The translations under genes were made by a program, and so were the position numbers. A model generated the notes under the pieces. The model ran no database searches. It was not told the DNA's origin and worked only from the letters and a program-made list of their open reading frames with translations. Source: Acidobacteriota bacterium (GTDB lineage Bacteria; Acidobacteriota; Terriglobia; Terriglobales; Acidobacteriaceae). From it: 39,420 nt of DNA. The stretch covers positions 1-39,420 of the forward strand of contig QIAH01000358.1 in assembly GCA_003225465.1 (NCBI GenBank). Direction: 5' to 3'. Numbering within the stretch: the first letter of the stretch is position 1; the number at the start of each line of letters is the position of its first letter. Shown here one piece after another: positions 2,086-37,433 of this stretch.

Positions 2086-3402
2086 TCAGCCGCGATCGAC
2101 TGACGATGGCTCGAGTCGCTGAGAGAGCGCCTTTGTTTCCAGTTCGCCTTCCCAGCGGGCCACCACTATAGTGGCTACGCCGTTGCCGATCATGTTGACC
2201 AGGGCGCGGAACATGCTCATAAAGCGATCGATCCCGAGGATCAAGGCCATGCCTGCGACCGGGATGGTAGGGATAACGGAGAGGGTTCCGACCAGCGCAA
2301 TGAAGGCTGCGCCCTGCACCCCGCTCGCACCCTTCGACGTCAAAACCGCGACGGCGAAGATGGTGAGTTGCTGCAAGAGCGTGAGATGAGTATTGGTCGC
2401 TTGGGCGACGAAGAGCGCCGCCAATGTCATGTAGAGGCTGGTGCCGTCGGTGTTGAACGTATAGCCGGTTGGGACGACCAGTCCCACCAGCGGTTTCGAG
2501 CAGCCGAGTTTTTCCATCTTCTCCATGAGAGTGGGAAGAGCTGTCTCGGACGAACTCGTCGCCAGTACGAGCAAGACTTCTTCCTTGATGTAGAGCAGGA
2601 ATTTCACGATGCTGAAGCCGGCTACGCGCGCGATTGCACCCAGCACGGTCAGCACAAACAGAACTGAAGTGATCCAGAACGTGCCAATCAATTTGATCAA
2701 GGGGCCAAGCGAGGCAATCCCATACTTGCCCACGGTGAAAGCCATGGCGCCGAAAGCGCCGAGGGGGGCGAATTTCATGAGAATATTCACGACGCCAAAC
2801 ACGGCAACCGAGAGCGCGTCGAAGAAATCGATCAGGGGCTTGGAGCGCGATCCGACCGCTGAGAGCGCGAAGCCAAATAGAATCGAGATCAGCAGGACCT
2901 CCAGGATATCGCCCTTCGCAAAGGCATCGACCACGGTGGTCGGGATGATGTGCATCAGAAACTCGGTGACACTTTGCGCCTTGGCCTGTCCGGCGTAGTC
3001 TGCGACCGCTTTGGCATCGAGCGTTCTGGGATCAACATTGAAGCCGCTTCCTGGGCGCACGACATTGCCGATGACCAGGCCGATGAGCAAGGCCACCGTC
3101 GAAACGATTTCAAAGTAGATCAGGGCCATGCCGCCCACGCGGCCGACCTTCTTCAGGCTCTCCATGCCCGCGATTCCGGAAACTACCGTGCAGAAGATGA
3201 TCAGCGTGATGATCATCGAGATGAGGCGGATAAAAGCATCGCCGAGAGGTTTCATGGCGATGGCGCGCGCGGGACTGAAATAGCCGAGCGCGACTGCAAC
3301 TGCCATGGCAAAGAGAACCTGCACCCAGAGCGTGGCGTAGAACGGCTTAGGGCGTGGCGTTTGAGTTGCGGCGCGCGTGACTGATTCGCTTAGGGTGCCC
3401 AT
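2086..3402 (-). CDS. dctA: Dicarboxylate:cation symporter, DctA type
   Basis: This is a dicarboxylate/amino acid:cation symporter (DAACS family) of the inner membrane, importing C4-dicarboxylates such as succinate, fumarate or malate with protons or sodium. The diagnostic region is clear: the serine-rich reentrant loop [16 protein letters not shown], then [20 protein letters not shown] and the [18 protein letters not shown] helix that forms the substrate and cation site. At 438 aa it has the usual family length with multiple hydrophobic segments. The ATG at 3402 has gagga a few bases upstream. It lies in the same direction as the secreted hydrolase gene, 80 bases downstream of it. The gap contains a 25-bp hairpin repeat, so co-transcription is possible but not shown. 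A glutamate/aspartate carrier (GltP-like) is the main alternative; the loop resembles DctA more closely. Confidence 0.9.
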
Positions 3403-4845: not shown

Positions 4846-7800
4846 CTAAAAGGTAAGTTTCAAGCCCAACTGTAGGGCGCGACTGCCGCCCGACCCGATG
4901 ACCGGGTTGGAAGCGGCTACGTCAGGCGTAGCGCAACCGCAGCCGAAACCTCCCGGGCCCGGAACGGATGGATCGTTGTGTCCCCATCCGTTCTGACCTC
5001 CGAATGGGTTGGCGAAGTTGGGATGATTCAGGACGTTAAAGAATTCGGCACGGAACTGCGCGCCGAAACGCTCCGTGAATTTCCAGTTCTTGGCGACCGA
5101 GAAATCCCAGTTGTAGAAGCCGCCGTCGCGAAAGAGGTTGCGGGGCATGGTTCCGAATGTTCCCATGGCGGGAGGAATCATTACCGAGTTCCCCTTTGCA
5201 TAGCAGCCGAACGCTGCCAGCGAGTCCAGAGCTCCAACCGCGGTTGCATTGCTGATACAAGCTGCCGGAGTGGCGCCTGGGTTCGCGGGGTCGAACGTGA
5301 AATACGGAATCGGGTTCGCTCCTGACTTGAAGTCGCTGGGATGGCCGAAGAAATCCCAGCGATCATTGCCGGCGAACGTGCCGCTAACATTTGTGCCAGT
5401 ATCCATGGGACCCCAAGGCTGGCCGCTTGCCAACGTGACGATGGAATTGAGCTGCCAGCCTTCGAGTAACTGAGCGAATGACTTTCTGCTGGGGAGGGCA
5501 TAGGTCAAGGAGAGCGTCAAGCGGTGGCGGATATCGAAATCGCTGCTGGCGTACTCGTTTTGCGGATGGGTGCTGTCTTGGGGCAGGCCGAGACCGGCGC
5601 CGAAGTCCCAGTTCGCGCCCACTTGATCGAGACTGTGCGAATAGGTGTAGCCGGCGATGAAGGTGAACCCGCGGAAGTTGCGGGCAGTAAGCGTACTCTG
5701 CAGGCCGTTGTAGTTCGATCTATAGATGTTGCCCATCATGTAGATGTTATTGAGAAAGGGGAAGGTGCCGTTGAAGGGGCGTCCAGACTGGCCGTCCTGG
5801 CCGGGATCATTCGCGGCGACGTCCTGGTTGATATCGCGGATGCCGACGAGATTGGCGCCGTGATTGCCAACGTAAGCCATTTCGAGCGATAGGTTGGGGT
5901 TAAAGGCATGCTGCACCCCGAACGTCCAGTGATAGACGTAGGGAGTGCTGAATTTTCGGTCGATGCCGAGAATGCCGCAGCCACCACCGGTGCAGTCGAG
6001 AGGGGTAGTCGGAAAGACAGTGCCCTGGATGCCGGTGATGGCGGGATCCCAGTTAATTCCACCGGCAGTGGGATCGCCACCCGAAAAGCCGACGACGCCA
6101 ACGGCGATGGAGCCTCCACCCGGACTGACGCCGACGCCCCCCGTTGGAATAGTGGCCAGGCCAAGAGAATTGTTCAGAGCAAGAAAGGACTCCCAGTTGA
6201 GAGTCTCATAAATCAGGCCAGCCCCACCGCGGACAACCGTCTTGCCATTTCCGCCGATGTCCCAGGCGAAGCCGGCGCGAGGCGCAAAGTTATTATGGTC
6301 GCCTTGATAAGGACTTTTGATTTGGTGGCCGACTTGCTCGAGACTGACACTGGGATCGAAGTTGCCGAGCAGGTTGTGTTCTTCCTTAATCACGGTGTTC
6401 AACTCATACCGAATCCCGAAATTTAAGGTGAGATTCTTTGCGATCCGCCAATCGTCTTGCACGAAGCTGGCATATCCCCAGTTGTGAATATGGCGAGTGG
6501 GATCGCCGACCAGCTGCGTTGCAGAACACGGGATACCGCCCAGGAAATCCTCGAGCGTGTTGTTGTAGACGTCGTTGCAGAATCCGAACTTGATGCGTCC
6601 GCGAACGCCGCCGTAGGCGCCACCGCTGAAGGCATCCCGATGGATCTCGGCACCGAACTTCAGCGCATGCTTGCCGAAGGTGTAGGAGACATGGTCGACG
6701 AACTGGAAGCGGGTATCGGGGCCCTGAATCTTGGGCCAGTTGAATCCACCAAGCTCCTGCGGGAATTCGTACCAACCGGCGATGTTGATGCGGGGAAGGC
6801 CGCCGTACAGAGGATTGGTGACGCCCGTATCGAGGCCGTAGCTCGAGGCCGGCCGATTGTGATCGTTGGTGAAAGTAGGCTGGTACAGGCGGTTGTAGCC
6901 AAAGCGCGCTTCGTTTACCAAGCGAGAGTTGGCGATGAAGGTCCAGTTCGCGCCCAGAACCTGGGCGCGGGTGTGAATCTGGGTCAGCCACTGCGGCTGC
7001 AGCTGTTGCGCGTCGGAAACAGTGCCAGAATTGTTTCCAAAGAAGTAGCGTCCGCTGATCACGTTGCGGTCGCTGATGTGGTCATCGATCTTTACTACGG
7101 CGTTGTCGGCGCTGACGGTGTTGGGCAGTCCATAGTTGATGGCGGTGGCCCCGTTCGGATTGGTGCCGTCGTTCGCGGGAAAGCCCTTGCCATTGCAGGA
7201 AATCGGAGGGCCCAGGGTGCAGCCGCCGATCTGCAGACTCACCGGACTGATGGGAATGCCTTTGCTTTGCATGTCGGCGAGGGCGTCGATGATGCTGGTG
7301 GTCGGATCACCGGCGGGATTGCCTGCGCCCGCCAGCGAGACGGTCAGCGGCGTGGTCAGCGTGCCGGTGTTGCCGACGGTGTAGCGCTGCCCTTCGTAGG
7401 CTCCAAAGAAGAACACTCGATCCTTGACGATGGGGCCGCCGATGCTGGTCCCAAACTGCTCGAGATTTCTCGGGTTCTTTGCCTGCGTCGAAGGATTGAA
7501 GTAGTTGCGGGCGTCGAGCGGTGTGTCGCGGCCGAAAGCATAGGCAGTTCCGTGCACGCTGTTGGTCCCAGACTTCAGGCCTACGTTGACAATGGATCCC
7601 GGTTTCCAGCCGTACTCTGCGGGAGGATTCTGCTGGAGGTTGAACTCCTGGATCGAATCGATCGGCAGGATCGTGGCCGAGTCTCCGGCAATGCCGGCAC
7701 CATTGATGATGCTTTGTCCGGAGAAGGGCTCGCTGTTGAAGAGGCCGTCGATGAGGTAGGCGTTATCTTCGGCGCGCAGGCCGTTGCTGCTGGTGGTGGA

Positions 7801-8322
7801 AAATCCACCGCCCGGATAGCGAACTACACCGGGGCGCAACTGGAGAAGGTTTTCATAGTTGCGTCCGTTTAGGGGGAGTTCGTTGATTTCTCTGTTGCTG
7901 AGCGTCCCACCCAGGGTGGACGTGGTGGTGTTAAGCAGCGGGATTTCTTCGGTGACGACTACGGTCTCATTCGCCTGACCGGGCGGCAGCACCAGATCAG
8001 TGGCCACGTCCTGAGCGACTTCGAGCGGGACGTTCACGCGCTCGACCGTCTTGAATCCCTTGGCCTCGCCCCGCACCTTGTAGGTACCGGGCAGTAAGTT
8101 GGGAGCGACGTAAGCGCCGGAGTCGTCCGTAGTCAGGTTTCGGGTGGTTCCCCTCTCAGTATCGGTGATGGTCACGGCGGCGCCGCGAATGGCAGCGCCG
8201 GTCGAATCAGTGACGGTGCCCAGGATGCGGCCGCTAACAGTCTGGGCGAAAACCGGAACGGATGCGAGCACGAGTGCCACGATCACACCCAGCACCCAAA
8301 TGCTCTTCGACAGAGAACGCAT
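4846..8322 (-). CDS. TonB-dependent receptor, Oar-like
   Basis: This is a large outer-membrane receptor of the Oar-like TonB-dependent group that is expanded in Acidobacteriota. The start at 8322 is chosen because ggagg lies 7 bases upstream and because MRSLSKSIWVLGVIVALVLA followed by PVFAQ is a clear signal peptide. The longer open frame to 8460 would run through the promoter and operator. Mature residues about 25-110 form a carboxypeptidase-regulatory-like beta-sandwich (GRILGTVTDSTGAAIRGAAV, LLPGTYKV). A plug follows (EIPLLNTTTSTLGGTLSNRE, INELPLNGRNYENLLQLRPG), then a long beta-barrel ending LQLGLKLTF with the C-terminal Phe typical of outer-membrane barrels. At 1158 aa it is full length. 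The ligand is unknown. The divergent neighbour is an aldehyde dehydrogenase, and both promoters carry FadR-type palindromes, so I infer it imports the precursor of the substrate oxidised by the downstream genes. Confidence 0.88.
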   Translation of the reverse strand: MRSLSKSIWVLGVIVALVLASVPVFAQTVSGRILGTVTDSTGAAIRGAAVTITDTERGTTRNLTTDDSGAYVAPNLLPGTYKVRGEAKGFKTVERVNVPLEVAQDVATDLVLPPGQANETVVVTEEIPLLNTTTSTLGGTLSNREINELPLNGRNYENLLQLRPGVVRYPGGGFSTTSSNGLRAEDNAYLIDGLFNSEPFSGQSIINGAGIAGDSATILPIDSIQEFNLQQNPPAEYGWKPGSIVNVGLKSGTNSVHGTAYAFGRDTPLDARNYFNPSTQAKNPRNLEQFGTSIGGPIVKDRVFFFGAYEGQRYTVGNTGTLTTPLTVSLAGAGNPAGDPTTSIIDALADMQSKGIPISPVSLQIGGCTLGPPISCNGKGFPANDGTNPNGATAINYGLPNTVSADNAVVKIDDHISDRNVISGRYFFGNNSGTVSDAQQLQPQWLTQIHTRAQVLGANWTFIANSRLVNEARFGYNRLYQPTFTNDHNRPASSYGLDTGVTNPLYGGLPRINIAGWYEFPQELGGFNWPKIQGPDTRFQFVDHVSYTFGKHALKFGAEIHRDAFSGGAYGGVRGRIKFGFCNDVYNNTLEDFLGGIPCSATQLVGDPTRHIHNWGYASFVQDDWRIAKNLTLNFGIRYELNTVIKEEHNLLGNFDPSVSLEQVGHQIKSPYQGDHNNFAPRAGFAWDIGGNGKTVVRGGAGLIYETLNWESFLALNNSLGLATIPTGGVGVSPGGGSIAVGVVGFSGGDPTAGGINWDPAITGIQGTVFPTTPLDCTGGGCGILGIDRKFSTPYVYHWTFGVQHAFNPNLSLEMAYVGNHGANLVGIRDINQDVAANDPGQDGQSGRPFNGTFPFLNNIYMMGNIYRSNYNGLQSTLTARNFRGFTFIAGYTYSHSLDQVGANWDFGAGLGLPQDSTHPQNEYASSDFDIRHRLTLSLTYALPSRKSFAQLLEGWQLNSIVTLASGQPWGPMDTGTNVSGTFAGNDRWDFFGHPSDFKSGANPIPYFTFDPANPGATPAACISNATAVGALDSLAAFGCYAKGNSVMIPPAMGTFGTMPRNLFRDGGFYNWDFSVAKNWKFTERFGAQFRAEFFNVLNHPNFANPFGGQNGWGHNDPSVPGPGGFGCGCATPDVAASNPVIGSGGSRALQLGLKLTF

Positions 8323-8354
8323 TACGGAACCTCCAACGACAGAGTGGAAGCTTG

Positions 8355-8376
8355 TGGTCCGACAGCTGTACCACCA
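8355..8376 (-). promoter_or_regulatory. FadR-type operator over TonB receptor promoter
   Basis: On the plus strand two 11-bp half-units abut: TGGTCCGACAG then CTGTACCACCA. They form an inverted repeat with arms TGGTnnnACAG / CTGTnnnACCA. On the minus strand a perfect -35 TTGACA (8394-8389) is followed after 18 bases by a TACAGC -10 (8370-8365) preceded by TG. The palindrome therefore covers the -10 and probable start site of the receptor gene. The pattern resembles the FadR-family consensus TnGTnnnACnA. Binding by the regulator at 10046 is inferred. Confidence 0.6.
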
Positions 8377-8418
8377 TACGAAGATAGATGTCAAGGAATT
8401 TTGGGTTTCCGGGTTTAC

Positions 8419-8459
8419 TTGACCGGACCTTGGGCGTCGGTGGTATTGTGGTCGGACCA
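8419..8459 (+). promoter_or_regulatory. Aldehyde dehydrogenase promoter with perfect TGGTCGGACCA operator
   Basis: TTGACC at 8419-8424 and an extended -10 (TG-G-TATTGT, TATTGT at 8444-8449) are 19 bases apart, which is slightly long. The perfect palindrome TGGTC-G-GACCA at 8449-8459 starts at the last -10 base and would cover the transcription start. This is the textbook FadR-subfamily GntR operator form. The promoter elements are moderate matches; the palindrome is exact. Confidence 0.55.
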
Positions 8460-8558
8460 ATTTTGCGCCCCATGCGCTGCGACGGACATCTTAATAGCAG
8501 TCAGATTTATTTGTCAGATGGATTGGAAGATTAAACGGACTTGGAGGTCTTTGGAAGT

Positions 8559-9923
8559 ATGGGAATCGCTACCGTTAACCCTGCCACAGGAGAGGTCGTA
8601 AAGACCTTTACCGCGCTCAGCGATGCGGAGGTGGAAGCCAAAGTTCAACGCGCTGCGGAAACCTTCTTAAGCTACCGAAAGGTTCCATTCGCAGATCGCG
8701 CGCGGCTGATGACCAAGGCTGCCGAAATCCTGGAAAAAGAGAAGGAAGTTTTCGGACGGCTCATGACCCTGGAGATGGGCAAGCCGCTGCGGGCTGCCAT
8801 TGCGGAAGCCGCCAAGTGCGCGACTGCGTGCCGGTACTACGCCGAGAACGCTGAGCGTTTCCTGGCCGACGAAATTGTTGACACCTCCGCCAAGAAAAGC
8901 TTTGTCCGCTATCTTCCCATCGGTCCGGTACTGGCAGTGATGCCGTGGAATTTTCCTTTCTGGCAGGTCATTCGATTCGCGGCACCGGCACTGATGGCTG
9001 GAAATGTGGGATTGTTAAAGCACGCTTCGAACGTTCCGCAATGCGCGCTCAAGATCGAAGAGCTTTTCTGCCGCGCCGGCTTTCCGCAGGGCGCGTTTCA
9101 GACATTGCTGATCGGGTCGCAGAGAGTGGATGACCTGCTGAATGATCCACGTATTGTGGCCGCAACGTTGACGGGCAGCGAGCAAGCGGGCATCCAGGTG
9201 GGTATGGGCGCGGCCAAGAGAATCAAGAAAGTTGTGCTTGAGCTCGGCGGCAGCGATCCGTTTATCGTGATGCCCAGCGCGGACCTGGATGCAGCGGTCG
9301 AGACGGCGGTGGAGGCCAGAATCATCAATAACGGGCAGTCCTGTATTGCGGCCAAGCGCTTCATCGTTGCCGAGCCGATTGCAGATGCATTTGAGAGAAA
9401 ATTTGTCGCGCGCATGGAGGCGCTGGTGGTCGGCGATCCTACAGATGACAAGACAGAGCTTGGTCCACTCGCGAATGCCGATGCAGTTACTTCGCTGGAC
9501 GCGGATGTGAAGAAGACGGTGGAGGCTGGTGCCCGCCTCGTGACGGGAGGGCATCCGCTGAAGCGTCCAGGGAACTATTACGCGCCCACGGTGCTGACGA
9601 ACATTCCCAAGAATTCGCCCGCCTACCGGGAAGAGCTCTTCGGACCGGTGGCTTCGATCTTTCGAGTGAAGAATCTTGATGATGCGATCCGGGTTGCGAA
9701 CGACAGCCGCTTCGGCCTGGGTGCAAGCGCATGGACACAGGATGACGAGGAGCGCGAAAGGTTCGTTAATGAACTCGAAGCCGGAATGGTTTTCATCAAC
9801 AAGATGGTCGCCTCCGACCCGAGAATTCCGTTTGGTGGCGTGAAACAGTCCGGATATGGCCGCGAACTGGGTGTTCACGGCATTCGGGAGTTCACGAATA
9901 TCAAGACTGTGTGGATTCAGTGA
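8559..9923 (+). CDS. Succinate-semialdehyde-type aldehyde dehydrogenase (GabD1-like)
   Basis: This NAD(P)-dependent aldehyde dehydrogenase resembles the GabD1 group of succinate-semialdehyde dehydrogenases, oxidising an aldehyde to its acid in the cytoplasm. The catalytic Cys is C262 (NNGQSCIAAKRF) and the general base Glu is E228 (VLELGGSDPF); their spacing of 34 is canonical. Subfamily motifs include VMPWNFPFWQVIRFAAPAL, GLLKHASNVPQCA and FGPVASIFRV. The ATG at 8559 is chosen because it is preceded by ggaggt at 8543-8548 and gives the usual GabD N-terminus (ATVNPATGEVV). A TTG at 8541 in the same frame overlaps that ribosome binding site and is unlikely. It is divergent from the TonB receptor and upstream of the regulator gene. 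Substrates other than succinate semialdehyde, for example methylmalonate or malonate semialdehyde, are possible given the neighbouring hydroxyacid dehydrogenase. Confidence 0.92.
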   Translation: MGIATVNPATGEVVKTFTALSDAEVEAKVQRAAETFLSYRKVPFADRARLMTKAAEILEKEKEVFGRLMTLEMGKPLRAAIAEAAKCATACRYYAENAERFLADEIVDTSAKKSFVRYLPIGPVLAVMPWNFPFWQVIRFAAPALMAGNVGLLKHASNVPQCALKIEELFCRAGFPQGAFQTLLIGSQRVDDLLNDPRIVAATLTGSEQAGIQVGMGAAKRIKKVVLELGGSDPFIVMPSADLDAAVETAVEARIINNGQSCIAAKRFIVAEPIADAFERKFVARMEALVVGDPTDDKTELGPLANADAVTSLDADVKKTVEAGARLVTGGHPLKRPGNYYAPTVLTNIPKNSPAYREELFGPVASIFRVKNLDDAIRVANDSRFGLGASAWTQDDEERERFVNELEAGMVFINKMVASDPRIPFGGVKQSGYGRELGVHGIREFTNIKTVWIQ

Positions 9924-10045: not shown

Positions 10046-10810
10046 ATGACCAATCAATCTCTCGCTCCCTTTGGGGACAAACCCGTGTACAAAGCCGTTC
10101 GGACATCCCGTCTTTACGAGCAAATCGTTCAGCAGATCGAGGAGTCGATCCTCAAGGGCGCGCTGAAACCCGGGGATCAACTCCCCGCAGAACGCGAACT
10201 CGCCCAGAACTTCGGCGTGAGCCGCACGGCAGTGCGGGAGGCAGTCAAGGCGCTGCGCGAGAAGGGCCTGGTGGAAGCGTACTCGGGGCGCGGAACATTT
10301 ATCACGAACGGAACGTCCCAGGCGATCCGGCAATCGCTCGACCTGATGAGCCGCATCGGTCAACAGGAAGGGCTGGCGCATCTGGCTGAATTGCGGCAGA
10401 TCCTTGAGCCGGAGATTGCTGCCTTGGCTGCAACGCGGATTGAAGATCAATTGCTGGCGACCATGCGCGAGGCGGTCGCGACCATGGACCGGAGTCTGCA
10501 CGATCCCGACGCTTACATCGAGGCCGATCTCGATTTCCACCTGGCGCTGGCCGAGGCGGCCGCGAACCCCCTGGTGCTTTCGCTGCTCGATTCGATTGTT
10601 GGCCTTCTGCGTGAGCAGCGGCTGCGTATTTTCAGGATCGATGGCGGACCCGAGCGTGGGCAGTTCCATCACAAGCGCATTCTGGCCGCAACCGAGGCGC
10701 ACGATCCGGAAAAGGCTCGGGCGGCCATGCGGGCGCACTTAGGGCAGGTGCGCGAAGACTCGAGGGATTCTTCGGCCGAGGAACCTCCTTCCTCGAAATC
10801 AAGCACGTAA
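10046..10810 (+). CDS. FadR-subfamily GntR transcriptional regulator
   Basis: This is a GntR-family repressor with a C-terminal FCD ligand domain. The winged helix is at residues about 15-85: LYEQIVQQIEESILKGALKPG, then the recognition region ERELAQNFGVSRTAVREAVK and the wing GLVEAYSGRGTFIT. The FCD domain (about 100-235) keeps the likely metal and acid ligands: DLDFHLALA, QFHHKRIL and a late MRAHL His. At 254 aa it has the normal FadR-subfamily length. The ribosome binding site is weak (aaggg about 8 bases upstream). The reductase and 2-oxoacid dehydrogenase genes follow directly; the next ATG is only 16 bases after its stop. FadR-type palindromes lie at its own promoter and at the divergent aldehyde dehydrogenase and TonB receptor promoters. 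I infer it represses all three until a carboxylic-acid ligand binds. The ligand is unknown. Confidence 0.9.
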   Translation: MTNQSLAPFGDKPVYKAVRTSRLYEQIVQQIEESILKGALKPGDQLPAERELAQNFGVSRTAVREAVKALREKGLVEAYSGRGTFITNGTSQAIRQSLDLMSRIGQQEGLAHLAELRQILEPEIAALAATRIEDQLLATMREAVATMDRSLHDPDAYIEADLDFHLALAEAAANPLVLSLLDSIVGLLREQRLRIFRIDGGPERGQFHHKRILAATEAHDPEKARAAMRAHLGQVREDSRDSSAEEPPSSKSST

Positions 10811-10826
10811 TCGGAGACAAGGACGG

Positions 10827-11708
10827 ATGGCAAAACTGGGGTTCGTCGGCTTGGGCGTGATGGGCAGTCAGATGGTGAATCGGCTGCTCGAAAAAGGCCA
10901 CACGGTTACGGGCTACAACCGCACTCGTGCGAAGGCGCAATGGCTGATCGACAAAGGCATGAAGTGGGCCGACTCCCCACGCGCTGTAGCCGAAGCCTCC
11001 GACATTACCTTTGCCATGGTTACAAACGCGGCTGCGATTGCTGCCGTTACCGATGGGCCGGACGGAATCATCGCAGGTTTGGGCGCGGGGAAATACTTCA
11101 TTGATATGAGCACGGTGAGTCCGGAGGTGAGCCGGGCCACTGCGGCCAAAGTTCGCGCGAAGGGCGCGGACATGGTGGATGCGCCGGTCTCGGGCAGCGT
11201 CATCACGCTTCAGGAGGGCAAGCTTTCGGTGATGGTGGGCGGGCGCAAAGAGACTTTCGAGCGCGTGAAACCTTTGCTCCTGGATATCGGACCGAAGGTC
11301 ACGCATGTGGGCGCCAATGGGCTGGCGCTGGCGATGAAGATTGCCGTGAATCTGAGCCTTGCGGTGCAGATGATGGCGTTCTCTGAGGGCGTGCTGCTGG
11401 CCGAGAAGAGCGGCATCCGCCGGGAAGTTGCGGTCGATGTACTCACGCACAGCGCAATTGCCTCTCCCATGATCCAGTACCGCGGGCCATTCATCCTGCA
11501 GCAGCCCGGCGAGGCATGGTTCGATTGCAACATGATGCAGAAAGACATGCTCCTCGCCATGGAACTGGGAAGGCAGTTGAATGTGCCGGTACCGACCACG
11601 GCGGTCAGCAATGAATTTCTGACGGCGGCGCGCGGCATGGGGTGGGAGAAGAAAGATTTCGCGGTTGTATTCGACGTCCTGGCGCGGATGTCGGGGGTGA
11701 TGCAATGA
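10827..11708 (+). CDS. 3-hydroxyisobutyrate dehydrogenase-family reductase
   Basis: This is a beta-hydroxyacid dehydrogenase of the family that includes 3-hydroxyisobutyrate dehydrogenase, tartronate-semialdehyde reductase and glyoxylate/succinic-semialdehyde reductase. The N-terminal Rossmann motif is GFVGLGVMGSQM. After the beta-turn, YNRTRAK (Asn-Arg) suggests NADPH preference. The substrate motif DAPVSGSVITLQEGKLSVMVGG is intact, and the catalytic Lys is K171 (ALAMKIAVN), exactly the family position. At 293 aa the length is standard. It starts 16 bases after the regulator and overlaps the E1-alpha start by 4 bases (ATGA), so the genes are translationally coupled. With the nearby aldehyde dehydrogenase it suggests interconversion of a 3-hydroxyacid and its semialdehyde before oxidation by the 2-oxoacid dehydrogenase. 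The true substrate cannot be read from sequence. Confidence 0.9.
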   Translation: MAKLGFVGLGVMGSQMVNRLLEKGHTVTGYNRTRAKAQWLIDKGMKWADSPRAVAEASDITFAMVTNAAAIAAVTDGPDGIIAGLGAGKYFIDMSTVSPEVSRATAAKVRAKGADMVDAPVSGSVITLQEGKLSVMVGGRKETFERVKPLLLDIGPKVTHVGANGLALAMKIAVNLSLAVQMMAFSEGVLLAEKSGIRREVAVDVLTHSAIASPMIQYRGPFILQQPGEAWFDCNMMQKDMLLAMELGRQLNVPVPTTAVSNEFLTAARGMGWEKKDFAVVFDVLARMSGVMQ

Positions 11709-12700
11709 CCATCATCACCGAGCGTTCCAAGACTACGACAACGAAAGCGGAACAAGCTCTGCGAATGTACCGGCAGATGCTTGCGATCCGGCTATTCGAA
11801 GAGCGGGTGAACGACCTTTACACGCGCGCGCTAATGCCCGGGCTCGCCCATCTTTATATTGGCGAGGAAGCAGTCGCGGTCGGTGTGTGCGAAGCGCTGC
11901 ATAAAGATGACTACATTACCAGCACGCATCGCGGGCACGGTCACTGCCTGGCCAAGGGCGCTTCGCCAGATCGCATGTTTGCCGAGTTGCTGGGGAAGGA
12001 AGCGGGCTATTGCCGGGGCAAGGGTGGATCGATGCACATTGCCGATCCGGCGACCGGCAATCTGGGCGCGAACGCCATTGTCGCGGGCAGCGTCGGGATC
12101 GCGACCGGCGCGGCATTTGCAGCGCAGCGGCTGGGCAATGGGCGCGTCGCGGTTTGCTTTTTCGGCGAAGGGGCTCTGGGACAGGGATCGCTATATGAGG
12201 TAATGAACCTGGCGCAGCTTTTTAAATTGCCGGTCATCTATGTTTGCGAGAACAACCTCTACACCGAGTACACGCATTTTTCCGAGACTACGGCGGGCGA
12301 AATTCTGAACCGCGCAACCGCGTTTGGATTGGAGGCGGCCATGGTGGATGGGCAGGATGTGCGCGCGGTGCACGAAGCCGGATCCCGCCTCATTGAGCGT
12401 GCCCGCCGCGGAGAAGGCCCGGGCTTCCTGCTGGCGAATACTTATCGCTACACAGGCCACCATGTGGGCGACATCGCCCGCGAGTATTACCGCCCAAAAG
12501 CGGAAGAGCAAGAGTGGAAAATGGACCGGGATCCGATCAAGAACCTGACCAAGTGGCTGCTCGAGCAGAAACTCGCCGATAGCGTGCAATTGTCGGCCAT
12601 GGAATCAGAACTCACCGCAGAAATGGACAAAGCGGTCGAGTTTGCGGTGACCGCGCCGTATCCCTCGCCGGAAGAAGTGGAGCAAGATGTCTATGCCTGA
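11705..12700 (+). CDS. 2-oxoacid dehydrogenase E1 component, alpha subunit
   Basis: This is the thiamine-diphosphate-dependent E1-alpha subunit of a pyruvate, acetoin or branched-chain 2-oxoacid dehydrogenase complex, which decarboxylates the 2-oxoacid and passes the acyl group to the E2 lipoyl arm. The ThDP-binding motif runs from GEGALGQGSLYE to YVCENN. The phosphate-binding region includes HRGHGHCLAKG and CRGKGGSMHIAD. At 331 aa it fits the two-subunit E1 type. The ATG at 11705 overlaps the previous stop by 4 bases, and the gene overlaps E1-beta by 14 bases, so the three genes are co-translated. The E1-alpha of acetoin dehydrogenase is equally close by length and motifs. Without an alignment I do not choose between acetoin and pyruvate as substrate. 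Confidence 0.9.
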   Translation: MTIITERSKTTTTKAEQALRMYRQMLAIRLFEERVNDLYTRALMPGLAHLYIGEEAVAVGVCEALHKDDYITSTHRGHGHCLAKGASPDRMFAELLGKEAGYCRGKGGSMHIADPATGNLGANAIVAGSVGIATGAAFAAQRLGNGRVAVCFFGEGALGQGSLYEVMNLAQLFKLPVIYVCENNLYTEYTHFSETTAGEILNRATAFGLEAAMVDGQDVRAVHEAGSRLIERARRGEGPGFLLANTYRYTGHHVGDIAREYYRPKAEEQEWKMDRDPIKNLTKWLLEQKLADSVQLSAMESELTAEMDKAVEFAVTAPYPSPEEVEQDVYA

Positions 12701-13688
12701 AGTCGCCCAGAGGGAAGTGACGTTTGCGCAGGCGATCCGGGAAGCGCTGGCGGAAGAGATGCGGCGCGACGCGACGGTATGCATCCTCGGCGAGGATGTA
12801 GCCGAGGCGGGTACTCCGTTTAAGGTACTTTCCGGGCTGGTCGAGGAATTCGGGAAGGATCGCGTACTCGACACTCCAATTTCGGAGGCAGGATTCACGG
12901 GCATGGCGGTGGGCGCGGCGATGACGGGATTGCGGCCCGTGGTCGACATCATGTTCGGGGATTTCATCACCCTGACGATGGACCAGATGGTCAATCAAGC
13001 GGCCAAAGTTCATTACATGTCGGGCGGAAGGTGGAAAGTTCCGATGGTGATGCGCACCACACTGGGCGCGACGCGCCGCTCGGCTGCACAGCACTCGCAA
13101 TCTCTGCATGCCTGGTTCAGTCACGTGCCCGGGTTGAAAGTCGTACTGCCATCCACGCCCTACGACGCCAAGGGACTGCTCAAGACAGCTATCCGCGATG
13201 AGAATCCCGTTGTCTTCTTCGAAGACAAGATGATGTACAAGCTCAAGGGGCCTGTGCCAACGGAGGAGTACACCATTCCGCTGGGAGTTGCTGACATCAA
13301 GCGCGAAGGAAACGACATCACATTGGTTGCAACCAGCAGCATGGTGCAGGTGGCGCTGGGAGCATCGACACTACTGGAAAAAGCTGGCATCAGCGCCGAG
13401 GTAATCGATCCGCGGACGACCTGGCCGCTGGACGAAAAAACCCTGATTGACTCCGCGAAGAAAACTTCGCGGGTGATTGTGATCGATGAAGGTTATGGAC
13501 GCTATGGCGTCACGGCGGAGATTGCGTCCGTGATCGCGGAAGGCGCATTTTACGATCTGGATGCGCCTGTGAAGCGGATGGGAGCGATGCATGTGCCCAT
13601 TCCGTTCTCACCACCGCTCGAAGACGCTACTGTCCCGACGGAGAACTCCGTATTTGAAGCGGCGCGAGCGCTTTGCAATCGAAACTGA
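12687..13688 (+). CDS. 2-oxoacid dehydrogenase E1 component, beta subunit
   Basis: This is the E1-beta partner of the preceding gene; together they form the alpha2beta2 decarboxylase. Family motifs are clear: the N-terminal TFAQAIREALAEEMRRD, GEDVAEAGTPFKVLSGL, DTPISEAGFTGMAVGAA, and the loop RTTLGATRRSAAQHSQSLH. The C-terminal transketolase domain contains EVIDPRTTWPLDEKTLIDSA and VIDEGYGRYGVTAEIA. The 333-aa length is normal. The start overlaps the E1-alpha reading frame by 14 bases. An M24-family gene separates it from the E2 gene, which is unusual for such operons. No dihydrolipoamide dehydrogenase (E3) is encoded nearby, so E3 must be shared from elsewhere in the genome. Confidence 0.9.
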   Translation: MSMPEVAQREVTFAQAIREALAEEMRRDATVCILGEDVAEAGTPFKVLSGLVEEFGKDRVLDTPISEAGFTGMAVGAAMTGLRPVVDIMFGDFITLTMDQMVNQAAKVHYMSGGRWKVPMVMRTTLGATRRSAAQHSQSLHAWFSHVPGLKVVLPSTPYDAKGLLKTAIRDENPVVFFEDKMMYKLKGPVPTEEYTIPLGVADIKREGNDITLVATSSMVQVALGASTLLEKAGISAEVIDPRTTWPLDEKTLIDSAKKTSRVIVIDEGYGRYGVTAEIASVIAEGAFYDLDAPVKRMGAMHVPIPFSPPLEDATVPTENSVFEAARALCNRN

Positions 13689-13711: not shown

Positions 13712-15058
13712 ATGGCACTGCCTACTCATGGAACGATGGCGGTCGATTGGGAACAGCGAATCGACTTTGATCGGCTGCGCCGCGAACGCCTGCAGCGGGT
13801 GAAGGATATGCTGGCGAAGTCGGAAATGGGCTCGCTGCTTTGCTTCGACATGAACAACGTGCGTTATCTGACAGCAACGCACATTGGCACGTGGGCACAG
13901 GACAAGGCGAACCGGTTCACGCTCCTTCCACAGAATGACGAACCGATTCTCTGGGACTTCGGATCGGCGGCCCGGCATCATCAACTGCATTGCCCGTGGC
14001 TCGGGGAGCGCTCGCGGCCGGGGATTTCGATGTTGCGGGGCGCAATGACGCCCGAGATGGGGCGCGCCGAAGACGTTGCCAAGAAAATTCATCTTGAGCT
14101 GGAAATGCGCGGCCTGCAGAAAGAGCCGGTGGGTATCGACATCATCGAGCCGCCCGTTCTCTTTGCATTGCAGAAGCTGGGACTCGAAGTGGTGGACGGC
14201 CAAGCGCTGATGTCAGAGGCGCGCGTCATCAAGACGCAGGACGAGATCGCACTCCTGAATACTTCCGCGATGATGGTGGATGCCGCTTATGACGAGTTGT
14301 ATCGCACCATGAAGCCCGGATTCAGCGAGAACGAAGCCGTCGGCCTGGTGAGCAAAGTGCTTTACGATCTGGGCTCGGAATACGTTGAAGCGGTGAATGC
14401 GATTTCTGGCGAGCGCTGCAATCCGCATCCGCACGTGTTTTCCGATCGCGTGCTCAGGCCCGGCGATCCCGTGTACTACGACATTTTGCATTCCTACATG
14501 GGATACCGCACCTGCTACTACCGATGCTTCACGATCGGCTACGCCTCGCACGCGATGGTGGACGCATACAAGCGGTGCCGGGATTATCTCGATGCAGCCA
14601 TCGAGTTGGTGCGGCCAGGGCGCACAACGGCGGAGATCGCAGCGGTCTGGCCGAAGGCGACGGACTTCGGTTTCCCCAACGAAGAAGCTGCGTTCGCGTT
14701 GCAGTACGGGCACGGCATCGGCCTGGCGATCTGGGAGAAGCCCGTGATCAGCCGGCTGGTTTCGTTCGATCATCCCTGCGAAATCAAGCCTGGCATGGTG
14801 TTTGCGCTGGAGACGTTCTGGCCTTCGACGGATGGGTGGAGCGCGGCTCGCATTGAAGAAGAGATCGTGGTCACGCCCACCGGCCACGAGGTGATCACCC
14901 GGTTTCCGGCAGAGCAGTTGCTGGTTGCTGGAGCGCACTATTTCACCGTAAACGGTCCGCTCCCGACCACGCGCGAAAGCGAATCGGAACCGAGCCGGGA
15001 CGTGAAAGAGATGATCGAAGCCAGCGCGCGAATGGAGCGCGTCACCGTAGGAGATTAG
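13712..15058 (+). CDS. M24 metallopeptidase-fold protein with Asp-to-Cys metal-ligand change
   Basis: This 448-aa protein has the creatinase/aminopeptidase P layout: an N-terminal domain (RLRRERLQRVKDMLAKSEMG to about residue 165) and a pita-bread catalytic domain. Family metal ligands are D257 (GDPVYYD), H334 (YGHGIGL), E367 (MVFALETFW) and E382 (RIEEEIVV). The second Asp, expected 11 residues after the first in the GY..D..R.F motif, is Cys268 (GYRTCYYRCF). A second Cys sits at position 272. A ggagg lies 7 bases before the ATG. It stands between E1-beta and E2 in one operon, which points to a metabolic rather than a general peptidase role. Non-peptidase members of this fold include creatinase, DMSP lyase DddP and ectoine hydrolase, and any such C-N or C-S lyase/hydrolase activity is possible. 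The substrate is unknown. Confidence 0.85.
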   Translation: MALPTHGTMAVDWEQRIDFDRLRRERLQRVKDMLAKSEMGSLLCFDMNNVRYLTATHIGTWAQDKANRFTLLPQNDEPILWDFGSAARHHQLHCPWLGERSRPGISMLRGAMTPEMGRAEDVAKKIHLELEMRGLQKEPVGIDIIEPPVLFALQKLGLEVVDGQALMSEARVIKTQDEIALLNTSAMMVDAAYDELYRTMKPGFSENEAVGLVSKVLYDLGSEYVEAVNAISGERCNPHPHVFSDRVLRPGDPVYYDILHSYMGYRTCYYRCFTIGYASHAMVDAYKRCRDYLDAAIELVRPGRTTAEIAAVWPKATDFGFPNEEAAFALQYGHGIGLAIWEKPVISRLVSFDHPCEIKPGMVFALETFWPSTDGWSAARIEEEIVVTPTGHEVITRFPAEQLLVAGAHYFTVNGPLPTTRESESEPSRDVKEMIEASARMERVTVGD

Positions 15059-15082: not shown

Positions 15083-16276
15083 ATGCCCATCAGCGTTGTC
15101 ATGCCCGCTCTCGAAATGGCGCAGGAAACCGGCAAGCTCATTGCGTGGCTGAAGAAGGAAGGAGATCGTGTCAGCAAAGGTGAGCCGCTGCTCGAGATTG
15201 AAACGGACAAGGCGATCATGGAAATCGAGTCTCCTGGTGAAGGCGTGCTGGGAGGCGTGAAGGCCGAGGCAGGAGCCGAGATTCCCGTCGGGCAAACCAT
15301 CGCGTGGATTCTGCGGCCCGGAGAGAACGTCCCCATCGATCAGCCCGTTTCGCAATCAGGCCGGCATAAGGAACACCCGAGTTCGCAAGCTGTTCCGGTC
15401 ACAACGGAGGTAGCGGCCAAATCTGCCGCGCAGAATAGGGTTTCTCCCAAGGCGCGGCGGCTCGCAAAGGAACTGAAGGTCGATCTCACTGAGGTTCGCG
15501 GGTCAGGCGCGGGCGGCGAGATTCTGGCATCCGACATTGAGGCGGCCGCAGGAGCACCGGCGAAACAGCAATTGCCAACAGCGGCTCAAACTTCCGCCGA
15601 TTCGCTGAGTACCATCGCACGCCTGATGGCGGAGCGTACTACGCAGAGTTGGACTTCCGTTCCGCACTTCTTTGTAGTGCGCGAGGTCGACGCAGGGGCG
15701 TTGAATGGGGTGCGTGTGCAAATTGCCGCTGCTTTTGAGAACAAGCAGAGTTTGAGAATCACGCACACCGATTTACTGATTGCGCTGGTCGCGCGGGTTC
15801 TTGCGCGGCATCCGCGCGTCAACGCAAGCTGGATGGGCGACGGCATCCACAACAACGCGGACGTGAATATCGGCCTCGCCATGGCGGTAGAAGATGGCGT
15901 GGTTGCGCCGGTGATTCCGGGTGCAGACCGCCTCGATCTCGGTCAAATTGCGGCGCATCGCAAGGACCTGACCGAACGCGCCCGTGCCGGCAAGTTGCGC
16001 CACGCAGATCTGGCTGGGGGAACTTTCACGATCAGCAATCTCGGTATGTACAACGTAGATGCGTTCAGCGCGATCATCATTCCACCGCAAGCCGCCATCC
16101 TGGCAGTCGGCCACATCGCGGATCGCGTTGTTCCATTCGAAGGGAAACCCGCCATCCGGCCCATGCTTACCCTGACCCTCTCGGCCGATCACCGCGTGAT
16201 CGATGGCGCGCGCGCAGCCCTCTTTCTGGACGAGTTGGTGCAAGCCATGTTGTTTCCGGGCAAGTGGCTGGAGTAG
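15083..16276 (+). CDS. 2-oxoacid dehydrogenase E2 acyltransferase
   Basis: This is the dihydrolipoamide acyltransferase core of the complex, moving the acyl group from E1 to CoA. Residues 1-78 are one lipoyl domain with lipoylated K43 (IETDKAIMEIES). A flexible linker is followed by the peripheral subunit-binding domain (RVSPKARRLAKELKVD, GSGAGGEILASDIEAA). The C-terminal CAT domain ends with the active-site motif DHRVIDG, giving catalytic H370 and D374. At 397 aa with a single lipoyl domain it is a normal bacterial E2. The ATG is preceded by a pyrimidine-rich stretch rather than a Shine-Dalgarno sequence, but the lipoyl domain begins immediately, so this start is well supported. The next gene is over 100 bases away, so the operon probably ends here. 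Confidence 0.92.
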   Translation: MPISVVMPALEMAQETGKLIAWLKKEGDRVSKGEPLLEIETDKAIMEIESPGEGVLGGVKAEAGAEIPVGQTIAWILRPGENVPIDQPVSQSGRHKEHPSSQAVPVTTEVAAKSAAQNRVSPKARRLAKELKVDLTEVRGSGAGGEILASDIEAAAGAPAKQQLPTAAQTSADSLSTIARLMAERTTQSWTSVPHFFVVREVDAGALNGVRVQIAAAFENKQSLRITHTDLLIALVARVLARHPRVNASWMGDGIHNNADVNIGLAMAVEDGVVAPVIPGADRLDLGQIAAHRKDLTERARAGKLRHADLAGGTFTISNLGMYNVDAFSAIIIPPQAAILAVGHIADRVVPFEGKPAIRPMLTLTLSADHRVIDGARAALFLDELVQAMLFPGKWLE

Positions 16277-20118: not shown

Positions 20119-20859
20119 TTACGCCAGACGATTCAATGAAGCGGACTCATCAAAGTGGTTTGCAAGCGTCAGACAGATGGGCGCCTCCGGACGCGGACTC
20201 GCGACCACGGTTTGCAGGTTGGCCGCCGTGCTTCGCGACCAACCATCAAACATTTGCCCATCTGAACAGCGAACCTGAAAAGGACTCCAGCCAAAAAGAT
20301 CGCAAGCTCCAAGCGAAGGGCTTACCATGACCGAGCGAGTATCGAGTCGCAATCCTTCATGAAGAGCCTTCAGCACGCTCTCTTTTGCACTCCAAAGCAG
20401 AGCAACCATGCGGGGGCGTTCTGCCACCGAGATGCGAGCGAACAAAGCTTGTTCGTCGGGATGAAAGTAGTCAGCGATAAATGCGTCGCTGTGTGGCTCC
20501 ACGAGTTCCAGATCGCAACCTAATTGGACACCCGAACGAGCAACCGCACAGAGAGCAGTTCCTTCCCGATGGCTCAGCGAAATCGTAAGTGAGGGACCGG
20601 CCTTGCCGAGATACACTTCGGGCGCCCCCGACGTGGACGCGCGGATCTTAATCCTAGCGAGCGCGCGGGTGGAGGTCGGAAGACTCAAACAAGTTGCTAC
20701 CGCGCATTTGGCGGTCCAGCGGCCTAATCGCCAATCGGTGCGCCGTTTCAGAAAGCGCATGGTGTTGAGCCATTGGATCTCATCGTCGCACAGCCAATCG
20801 TTTCCTGACGGTACCTCGGCTTGCCGCTGCTCGAGCAAATACACTCGCATAAAGTCCAT
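20119..20859 (-). CDS. 4'-phosphopantetheinyl transferase, Sfp type
   Basis: This enzyme transfers the phosphopantetheine arm of CoA to carrier-protein domains. Both diagnostic motifs are present: GCDLELVEPH (magnesium-binding GxDxE) and WSAKESVLKALHEGL (W-x-x-KE-x-x-x-K). An upstream SLSHREGTALCAVA motif fits the CoA-binding strand. From the ATG at 20859 the protein is about 246 aa, the usual Sfp length. A second ATG at 20850 has a better spaced aggtgg and may be the real start. A longer frame upstream would overlap the carboxylase gene and has no family similarity. It starts 4 bases after the carboxylase stop, so it is translationally coupled to the synthase cluster. That placement mirrors the PfaE-type transferases that activate PfaA carrier domains. 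Confidence 0.9.
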   Translation of the reverse strand: MDFMRVYLLEQRQAEVPSGNDWLCDDEIQWLNTMRFLKRRTDWRLGRWTAKCAVATCLSLPTSTRALARIKIRASTSGAPEVYLGKAGPSLTISLSHREGTALCAVARSGVQLGCDLELVEPHSDAFIADYFHPDEQALFARISVAERPRMVALLWSAKESVLKALHEGLRLDTRSVMVSPSLGACDLFGWSPFQVRCSDGQMFDGWSRSTAANLQTVVASPRPEAPICLTLANHFDESASLNRLA

Positions 20860-20863
20860 CCAC

Positions 20864-23800
20864 CTACGCTGCTGCCTCCTCGCACTCCTCGCTCGCCAGA
20901 CTCTCCTCCCGCGCGATTCCGCGCTCGATGGCATCGATGAGATACGGGCGCAAGTCTGCCGGAGGAAGGATGCGATTGAGCGCGCCCACGTCGAGAGCGC
21001 GTTGCACGCTGTGCACACGGTCGAACTCGGCGGCCATTTCGCCAAGTTTCTCGGAATGAATGATGGCGAAAAGTTCCTCCCACTGGGTGCGCAAGCGCAC
21101 TTTTTCCGCGCCTTCGGCCTTAGCGAGCGCCTGGTTTAAAGGCTGCAGACGCGGATCTTTCTTCGTGCGTGCTTCCACTTCGCCCGCGAAGACAACTGCG
21201 GCCGCGGGAGCTCCGCCGATGACGGAAGCATAAGTGCCTTCCAGGGCGGCGACTTCAAGCTGTTCGTTGAGCGCCCGGGAGAAGACAACGTAGGCGCCGC
21301 CGTGATAGCGCGAGATCACGCAGAACACGATCGGCCCCTTGAAATTGACGACGGCCCTGCCGATCTCCGCGCCATATTCAAGTTGCAGCCTCCGCATCGA
21401 CTCGGGCGAGCCGTCAAATCCAGAAAGATTGGCGAGCACAACGAGCGGCCGATTGTTGCTGGCGGCGTTGATGGCACGCGCTACTTTCTTCGAAGACTGC
21501 GGGAAGAGCGTGCCGGCGCACCACTGGTCGGGGCCATCGGCGGGAACAAATCCAAATCGCGGCACGGGGCGCGATTCGATGCCGATGAGGCAAACGGGAT
21601 AGCCGCCGAGATGCGCGTCCCAGACCACGGTCGTCTCGGCGGCGCGCATGCCTGCCCAGCGTTCGAGGGGCGCATGGTCCTGATCGACGACCGCCTTCAT
21701 CACCTTGCGAATCTCGAAAGCCTTCTTTCTGCCGGGGTTGGTTTCATCGGACAAGATGTCGCCGATGCGCGCGAAACCCTCCTCACCGTTTTCGCTGTGC
21801 ACATAATCGCGAACGTCGCGCTGGACCGGGTCGCTAGTTTGAGCGGGCCGGGGGAATCGTTCGCCCGGCTCGATGTAAGTGTGGTCGTAGTGACGCATCA
21901 AAATGTGGCACGCTTCATCGATGTCTTTGGCCCAGTATTGTGCCTGTCCGTTCAGGCCCATGATGCGGTCGTAGCCGCCGATGCCCTGGTTATCTTCGGC
22001 GGAGACGCTGCCGGAATAATCCAGCGCGCGTTTTCCGGTCAGGACCATGGCGGCTTTGGGCGTCATCACCAGGATGCCGCGAGTGTGCATGAGCATGGTG
22101 GCTTCGGCGTTCCAATACGGCTGGGCTCCGACGTTGATGCCGTTCACGAGCAAGTTGACTTCGCCGCCCGCTTGCGTGAACTCGATGAGCCGCCGCAGGA
22201 CACGCGCAATCCAGTCCATGTTCTCGACGCCGCTGTCCATGGAAATCTTTGCGCCTGCGGAGATGGGGAACCATTCCAGCGGGACGCCCTTCTCCTCGGC
22301 CAAATCCAACGCCGCCAGGATGCGCTGGCACTCTGCTTCGGCGAGGGCGCCAAGATCTTTGCTGGGATCGCCCAGCAGCATGACGCGGGTCATACCTTTG
22401 GGATAGCGAGCCGTGAAGTTGCGGATCACGCCCACGACAATGTTCGCCTTGTTCTTGCCGTATGGGCGAATCACGGGGACGAGGTGGTTTTCGGCATCGA
22501 GATCGTGTTCCACAAATTCGCCCGGAGGAAACTCTGCCCCAGTGCTCTCCGGAGAGGGCGTGAGCATCCGAATAATCTCGTATGGGTAAATGAGGCCACG
22601 CTGGCGCATGCGGACAACTTTCTGTTCATATTCGGCCAGCGGTTTTAAGGGTTGCAGTTTGTCGGCGGGGCGGAAGGTGATCAGCATTCCGGTCGCGCCT
22701 GGGCTGGAAATGCGAATGACCATGTCGCGCAATTCGCCAGTCGCGGGATTGGGAATGCGGGTACGCACGACGACCTGTTCGAGGCCGAGGCCTTCGGTTG
22801 CAGGGGCAAGCCGGTGCACGATGTCGCGAAGTTCGTCGCGCCCCAGGGTGAGTGGCGGCCAAACGTACAGAAAGATGCGGTTCCAATGCAGGCGCTCTTG
22901 CGCTCGCCGGCGGGACTGGAAAAGCCGGATGCTGGCGAACGCCTCAGCGAGCATGCGCTCGAGGTGTGGGAGTTGCACGACGCGCCCCGTTTCATCGCGC
23001 ACCGGCGTGACATCGCGAACTTCCGCGCAGGCGAACAGGCGCTCATCTTTGGGATTCTCCCGAGCGACAGCGTGCAGCAGATAAACATCTTCGACAGTGG
23101 GCAACCGCTCTATATTGAAGTTGCTGAGCCGCCACAGGTGGAGGCGCTTCCCCATCATCGGATGCAGGCCACGATAGACTTGTTCTTCCTGATATCCAGT
23201 GGCGCAAGGACGATAGGTGAAGTGCTGCATGCCTCCGATTCCCTTGCCCATTCCTGGACCTGCGACCGCAACTACGATGCGGCGGATCGCGCGCGGAAAG
23301 CCGGCTTCGGAGAGGATCCTCTGCAGATCCAGTTGCGTCACCTCGGGATCGTTCGGGCGAGCATCGTGCCATGTGTAAAAATCAATCACGATGTCATGGT
23401 CGGCAGGCACGGCTGCGATCAGGGGAAACAGCGTTTGCACGGACTCGCTCAGGTGAGCATAACTTGCGTGCGTCGCGAACACGTGGATGTGCTTCCCTTC
23501 ATAGTCGTATTCCGCGCAAGCGTAGCCATGGCCATTGGAGGTCAGGGAGCGGAAGCGGGTGAAGGTTCGAATGCGGTAGTAGCGCTTCGTGAGCGCCTCG
23601 AGCATCAATTCGCGCATTTCAGGCGAGGCAGCGGCGAAGCGTCCGCACAATAGACTCACCAGCGGCTGCGGACATTCGACCAATGCACGAACTCTCTCGT
23701 GGCGGTCGACAGCATGCGGGTTGGCCGCCATGTAGGCCAGGTGTTCCTCCATCTGGACATACACGTTGCGCCGCGCCTTCTCAAACAGCGGTTGATCGAA

Positions 23801-35694: not shown

Positions 35695-35783
35695 GATGAA
35701 GCCCCTTTTATGAACGTAAGAAGAAGTGGAAGGGCCGGCGTGTCGAAGCACAGCCCTTGCGCCCGAGCGTTTTTGCCGAAGAC

Positions 35784-36197
35784 CTACGCCGCCTGATCTG
35801 CCCGCTTGGCGACGCGGTTGTAGAGCACATCTGCCACATAGTCCATATCCGAGATAAGGCCGGCTTGAGCCTGGTGAATCGCCGGCAATCCCAAAGTTGT
35901 TTCGAAGGCGGAGAGATCGGTATTGCTCACACCTCCGGCGCCGATGATCCAGCGCACGCCTTCCTCGCCGACCTTGAGTGCGGCCTCGCGTGCGAAGATG
36001 CGGCTGATCGCCGCGAGCGCGCTGGCGTCAAAACGATGATTGGCTTTTTCGTTCAGCTTGTTGTCGGCCATCAAGGCAGCGCGGCGTGCCAGGCTACCGG
36101 CGCACTCCGTGTAGGCGATCAACTCGCCCAGCCGCAAGAGGATGTGCTGGAAACGAGTCAGCCTCGCGACCCGCGCCTTTTCCATGACCTCTGCCAA
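35784..36197 (-). CDS. Separated C-terminal domain of the acyl-CoA dehydrogenase
   Basis: This 137-aa frame has no catalytic motif of its own. Its sequence ([54 protein letters not shown]) looks like the helical C-terminal extension of long acyl-CoA dehydrogenases. It overlaps the last 40 bases of the preceding dehydrogenase gene in the -1 frame and starts at a TTG (36197) or an ATG four codons later (36185), with only a poor ribosome binding site. Two readings are possible: a frameshift that broke one long gene, or a separately translated subunit coupled to the upstream gene. The coding pattern remains clean to the stop, so either the break is recent or the fragment is still used. The megasynthase starts 89 bases downstream. 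Confidence 0.65.
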
Positions 36198-37423: not shown

Positions 37424-37433
37424 GATCTCGACC

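Follow-up and report, generated by a model that had tools for sequence, protein, structure and literature searches.

M24 metallopeptidases such as prolidase and aminopeptidase P hold a dinuclear metal centre through a ligand set of Asp, Asp, His, Glu and Glu, and a further histidine, seven residues past the ligand His, has a role in the peptidases. The same fold is found in ectoine hydrolase (DoeA), which acts on a small molecule, and in creatinase, which works without metal. DddP enzymes are DMSP lyases. For one of them, RdDddP (4b28), the published description gives six metal ligands that are invariant in DddP (Asp295, Asp297, Asp307, His371, Glu406 and Glu421), with Asp377 as the base favoured by the authors (PMC4108388). 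The protein described here is encoded in a 39,420-nucleotide stretch of acidobacterial DNA (the window).

An M24-fold protein with cysteine at the second metal position

The gene lies at 13712-15058 on the plus strand and encodes 448 residues. Over residues 182-389 it scores 118.7 bits with Pfam M24 (PF00557), above the cut-off of 23, which places the protein in the M24 superfamily. A profile search of solved structures returned DddP first (4s00, 4s01, 4rzy and 4b28; E 4e-38 to 6e-35), followed by proline dipeptidases.

The initial annotation had proposed that four of the five M24 ligands are kept and that the second metal Asp is replaced by cysteine, and this arrangement was confirmed. The retained ligands are D257 (codon 14480-14482), H334 (14711-14713), E367 (14810-14812) and E382 (14855-14857), all on the plus strand. 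They correspond in the profile alignments to Asp295, His371, Glu406 and Glu421 of RdDddP, so that four of the six ligands are common to both; chain numbers were matched to the published numbering by motif spacing. The second Asp (Asp307 of RdDddP) is Cys268, encoded by TGC at 14513-14515 (+) within GGATACCGCACCTGCTACTACCG (14501-14523), and C268 aligned to the second metal Asp in all five profile alignments shown (four DddP sequences and one proline dipeptidase). The dinuclear metallopeptidase set is thus interrupted at its second member. The histidine seven residues past the ligand His is also absent from the window protein, which has Trp341 there (14732-14734, +); of 39 Asp-type M24 proteins, 33 carry a His at this position.

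An AlphaFold2 model of the window protein was generated from alignment A2, in which the protein is joined by 30 of the 80 close homologues (31 sequences in total); L052, which has a stop at codon 437, is absent. The model is poor: mean pLDDT was 60.8, and residues 235-256, 267-281 and 326-347, which form active-site loops, scored below 50.

A 2-oxoacid dehydrogenase operon surrounds the gene

The M24 gene belongs to a run of genes that are all on the plus strand. The first encodes an aldehyde dehydrogenase of the succinate-semialdehyde dehydrogenase (SSADH) type (8541-9923), which reaches 708.4 bits with NCBIfam PRK09406 and so stays under that model's cut-off of 730. It is followed by a GntR/FCD-family regulator (10046-10810; Pfam GntR, FCD) and a beta-hydroxyacid dehydrogenase of the 3-hydroxyisobutyrate/tartronate-semialdehyde reductase type (10827-11708; Pfam NAD_binding_2, NAD_binding_11). 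The best PDB matches of the latter are 3pef, 3pdu, 3cky (2-hydroxymethylglutarate dehydrogenase) and 3doj, some of which reduce succinic semialdehyde. Next come the 2-oxoacid dehydrogenase E1 alpha (11642-12700; Pfam E1_dh; likely start ATG 11705 from the translation), E1 beta (12687-13688; Pfam Transket_pyr, Transketolase_C), the M24 gene and E2 (15083-16276; lipoyl, E3-binding and catalytic domains in Pfam). The placement of the M24 gene between E1 beta and E2, already part of the initial annotation, was upheld by these Pfam assignments.

The same genome encodes aceE above its cut-off and two other E1beta-like genes at 44% and 42% identity, so the operon E1 is not the sole candidate pyruvate dehydrogenase and, on these comparisons, looks specialised. 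A housekeeping pyruvate dehydrogenase role was rejected, since aceE lies elsewhere in the genome. Valine catabolism was also rejected, because the window operon has no genes for acyl-CoA steps.

The reading that we prefer, to which we assign a probability of roughly one half, is that the M24 protein would be a non-peptidase enzyme with a cysteine in its metal site that feeds a dedicated 2-oxoacid dehydrogenase. The non-peptidase part of this reading is firmer than the metal part.

The window contains several other features. Near the operon, on the minus strand, are a DctA dicarboxylate transporter (2086-3402; NCBIfam 636.5 bits, cut-off 513) and a large TonB-receptor-like protein (4846-8460, named by eye). 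Further along, a single protein of 1864 aa (20864-26458, -) contains biotin carboxylase, biotinyl, ACC_central and carboxyltransferase domains, a fused arrangement typical of eukaryotic acetyl-CoA carboxylase. The same strand carries a 3083-aa synthase (26500-35751, -) whose domains are ketosynthase, acyltransferase, carrier, ketoreductase and dehydratase. Near it (20119-21045 and 36158-39211) lie genes for a phosphopantetheinyl transferase and an acyl-CoA dehydrogenase, and two for electron-transfer flavoproteins.

The cysteine is fixed among close homologues and across the clade

To assess conservation, 80 homologue loci were fetched out of 215 relatives found in the genome collection, with best-segment identities of 83-97%. 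Those whose titles were read are acidobacterial (Acidobacteria, Terriglobia, Edaphobacter and similar). D257, C268, H334, E367 and E382 are present in all 81 ORFs passing E 1e-100, the window's own copy included. Within a phylum sample, the M24 gene was found in 15 of 396 genomes (E<=1e-40). A DNA motif for GYR[TS]CYYR was likewise present in 15 of the 396, with a single copy per genome that always lay inside the M24 gene found by the protein search; the reversed control pattern occurred in 8 of 396, none of them among the 15 motif carriers. The gene is thus patchy in the phylum, yet strongly conserved in the genomes that have it.

Relatives on plasmids of Rhodococcus, Streptomyces, Paenarthrobacter and Rhodobacterales (53-62% identity) and of haloarchaea (about 34-37%) extend the family well beyond Acidobacteriota. 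The cysteine was found in all 15 clade plasmid loci read, out of 483 matching plasmid records, while two rhizobial plasmid proteins at 27% identity have Asp at position 268. Scans of viral contigs recovered no relative, either among the 45 stretches matched with alignment A1 or among the 2 matches to one M24 protein of the window's own genome.

Alignment A1 combined 6 acidobacterial and 15 plasmid rows (Acidobacteriota, Actinomycetota, Alphaproteobacteria and haloarchaea). C268 is its sole invariant cysteine (21/21 rows). Position 341 is more variable: Trp in the 6 acidobacterial and 4 of the 5 actinomycete rows, His in the 6 Rhodobacterales rows and in Streptomyces YIM 121038, and Tyr in the 4 haloarchaeal rows. 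Loss of His341 is thus not a feature of the clade, since other lineages within it carry His or Tyr there.

The residues fixed around the cysteine bear on a first alternative, a metal-free enzyme like creatinase, in which the M24 pocket would be kept without a dinuclear centre and Cys268 would serve as nucleophile, acid/base or substrate contact. Such a role would fit the clade-specific R266, C268, Y269, Y270 and R246, which cluster around the site and are the same in all 17 clade rows compared; the 39 other M24 proteins vary at these positions, except for Asp at 268, and the R246 equivalent is Arg in 13 of the 39. Creatinase also matches the clade profile, at a distance (1chm, E 9.9e-13; 7yto is similarly distant). 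However, D257, H334, E367 and E382 are invariant in 21/21 A1 rows, which suggests that metal binding is still under selection and favours its retention. We consider a metal-free enzyme unlikely. The preferred non-peptidase reading places Cys268 in the active site, where it would most likely be a thiolate metal ligand.

Other M24 proteins keep the aspartate

Elsewhere in M24 the position equivalent to 268 was read in 41 loci, of which 39 are distinct, and all 41 have Asp. These comprised 30 loci for PF00557 from 13 genomes, the window's own included and taken from a longer list of matches, together with 5 own-genome loci, 4 acidobacterial paralogues and 2 rhizobial loci. His, Glu and Glu are kept in all 41; at the D257 equivalent, 40 have Asp and one has Glu. 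Since Cys is present in 81/81 close homologues and 21/21 diverse rows, against Asp in 41/41 other M24 loci, the substitution is, as judged from these alignments, more than chance or sequencing error. The cysteine observation is stronger than first stated, since the residue characterises a clade with members in both bacteria and archaea.

The phylogeny provides further evidence. In a tree of 56 rows, the 17 Cys rows lie on one side of a branch with support 100/97, recovered in 100% of 200 bootstrap trees. These are 17 of the 21 A1 rows, four close acidobacterial rows being left out, and L145 and L160 are absent as duplicates of L083 and L084. The acidobacterial Asp paralogues (L093, L102-L104) join the Cys clade next, with support 98/92. 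The root is by midpoint only, and the tree program flags long branches meeting at deeper joins, namely XL164 and 7 more with the 23-row group holding the Cys clade, and XL121 with 1 more. The simplest reading is a single change from Asp to Cys.

These comparisons also weigh on the possibility that the protein is a working peptidase, like prolidase or aminopeptidase P, in which Cys can stand in as a ligand. Public annotation names the bacterial plasmid relatives Xaa-Pro peptidase family protein, and H334, E342 and R380 are indeed kept across the Cys clade, but the second Asp that every one of the 41 other loci keeps is absent from every clade row. In addition, the window lineage has Trp for His at 341, scores fall far under peptidase cut-offs (PepQ, 60.9 bits for the window protein against 630), and the operon resembles small-molecule catabolism. 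We consider peptidase activity improbable. The Xaa-Pro peptidase name is probably wrong for the whole group, from soil Acidobacteriota to haloarchaea, because the cysteine is fixed, the Cys proteins form a single clade, and the gene sits in this operon.

The gene set is conserved across genomes

Genomic neighborhood analysis covered 88 acidobacterial loci, at least two of them duplicated (L031/L124 and L037/L131), and each gene was scored only in loci with a sufficiently long flank. Upstream of M24, E1beta was found in 81 of 83 loci, E1alpha in 75 of 78, the beta-hydroxyacid dehydrogenase in 70 of 72 and the GntR regulator in 60 of 69; E2 was found downstream in 77 of 80. Among the 55 well-flanked loci, relatives of SSADH, DctA and the TonB receptor occurred anywhere in the locus in 25, 13 and 38, respectively. 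The exceptions are few: L014 and L130 have no E1; L014, L047 and L130 have no E2 in the flank; and L076 and L080 have no dehydrogenase upstream. L014 has no E1 between the dehydrogenase and M24, and L130 keeps SSADH, dehydrogenase and M24 in the absence of both E1 and E2, so the linkage of M24 to E1/E2 is not absolute.

Outside Acidobacteriota, E1 genes accompany M24 in 6/6 Rhodobacterales, 3/5 actinomycete and 2/4 haloarchaeal loci read. The six Rhodobacterales plasmids encode, in this order, M24, E1alpha, E1beta, a lipoyl protein, SSADH and E2, together with a sugar-type ABC transporter and SDR genes; their E1beta is 71-72% identical to that of the window, and four of the six also have a relative of the beta-hydroxyacid dehydrogenase. 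A plasmid of Phaeobacter inhibens P92 bears the cluster. Among the actinomycetes, Streptomyces YIM 121038 combines dehydrogenase, M24, SSADH, E1 and E2 in one place. In two other actinomycete loci, L106 and L115, E1 lies further off (about 13 and 8 kb), and none was seen in the stretch read of L105 and L107, although L107 has an E3 gene. Haloferax and Natrialba have E1 genes within 8 kb of M24, and none was seen in the stretch read of the Halorussus and Halorubrum loci (L112 and L118).

Linkage to E1/E2 in several phyla might point to a catalytically dead M24 protein that regulates the 2-oxoacid dehydrogenase or helps to assemble it, but this idea merits little credence given the invariance of the four ligands and many other residues, the fact that M24 and E1beta have the highest identities among the operon proteins (by eye), and the retention of M24 in L130 without E1/E2.

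Asp-bearing homologues in the same operon context were looked for. None was found: all 81 close homologues carry Cys. For the four Asp paralogues, recovered from the phylum sample at E<=1e-40, the surrounding 5.6-15 kb that were read contain no match to E1/E2 or to the other operon genes at a threshold of E 1e-5. A D-2-hydroxyacid-dehydrogenase-like gene adjoins the paralogue in all four of these loci (L093, L102, L103 and L104), and an alcohol-dehydrogenase-like gene does so in three, both named by eye.

Accessory genes and the substrate

Several loci carry additional genes next to the core set. In one locus (L064:6410-7686), the only one of 103 searched, E1beta and M24 are separated by genes for the alpha and beta subunits of nitrile hydratase, each of which passes its NCBIfam cut-off. 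An amidase adjoins GabD in L127 and L128 (the L128 aldehyde dehydrogenase passes the GabD cut-off, 838 against 828), and an amidase is also present in the Paenarthrobacter cluster L106. The L128-type amidase was found in 2 of 103 loci; weaker matches in L037 and L131, which are one record, look like GatA by eye. RidA was found in 2 of 103 loci, both from Paenarthrobacter, on the opposite strand in one of them; in L107 it ends where M24 begins. The presence of RidA beside M24 would be in keeping with conversion of an enamine or imine to a 2-oxoacid.

A LigM/DesA-like demethylase with a cupin is present in another 2 of 103 loci (L070:10534-12362 and L130:10024-11838), with 77% and 85% identity between the loci. 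The demethylase scores over the NCBIfam LigM cut-off and under that of DesA. In L070 the pair comes immediately downstream of E2, and in L130 it follows M24. Lignin O-demethylation was not adopted as the function, as these genes occur in just the two loci. Sulfonamide breakdown was also considered and not adopted: L107 lies near sulR, but the remaining annotated plasmid clusters that were read list no sulfonamide gene (L115 carries no annotation).

Together, the accessory genes, which differ between lineages, suggest that small, often nitrogen-bearing substrates enter at different points and that the core set handles a shared intermediate. The neighbours with nitrogen chemistry are sporadic, and this counts against the preferred reading.

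Proposed catabolic route

The preferred reading can be set out as a sequence of putative steps. A cytosolic, non-peptidase enzyme of a distinct DddP-related M24 clade, with its second metal Asp fixed as Cys, would most likely act on a small carboxylate, probably one that contains nitrogen, and break a C-N or C-X bond in it through hydrolysis or beta-elimination. This would yield a 2-oxoacid, or an enamine or imine precursor of one, which the E1alpha/E1beta/E2 complex would turn into an acyl-CoA. The beta-hydroxyacid dehydrogenase and the semialdehyde dehydrogenase may dispose of the other fragment. Of the initial interpretation, the operon setting is supported, and the operon has a catabolic look; the interpretation as a whole is partly supported.

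The clade spreads over soil Acidobacteriota, plasmids of actinomycetes and Rhodobacterales, and haloarchaea. More tentatively, it may be an ancient clade of bacteria and haloarchaea in which one swap of Asp for a thiolate accompanied a new, non-peptidase reaction, possibly the one by which substrate enters an undescribed catabolic pathway that ends in a dedicated 2-oxoacid dehydrogenase. A literature search with few terms, its scope excluding most subscription papers, returned no recognisable description of the operon or of a Cys-type M24 clade. The locus also points to a catabolic pathway for which that search found no description. Should the cysteine bind metal, nature would have redesigned a much-studied metal site in an unusual way.

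Comparison with described M24 enzymes

The kinship with non-peptidase M24 enzymes that the initial annotation had proposed is supported by the profile matches, with DddP the closest and DoeA weaker. The alignment to DddP spans profile positions 23-408, which cover both domains, and all 21 A1 rows match the NCBIfam DddP model at E<=0.001. Two of the six RdDddP ligands are nevertheless missing, Asp297 falling in a gap of the window protein and Asp307 corresponding to C268. The proposed base Asp377 corresponds to Trp341, a position that is W, H or Y across the clade. The window protein reaches 117 bits against the DddP equivalog cut-off of 600. Because Asp297, Asp307 and Asp377 are absent and the score falls this far short, the protein is, on profile evidence, DddP-related but not a DddP. 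With the DddP tests failed, DMSP was rejected as a substrate.

DoeA shares with the window protein the M24 fold and serves as an example of a small-molecule hydrolase, but both DoeA models score far below their cut-offs (60.7 against 575 for NF038259 and 58 against 613 for TIGR02993). Prolidase and aminopeptidase P (M24B) share the fold, the D, H, E and E ligands and Arg380, and have the second Asp and a His where the window protein has Cys268 and Trp341. The acidobacterial paralogue that groups with the Cys clade (98/92) is 33% identical to the window protein and keeps the Asp, positioned one residue further on as in DddP, where the window protein has Cys268.
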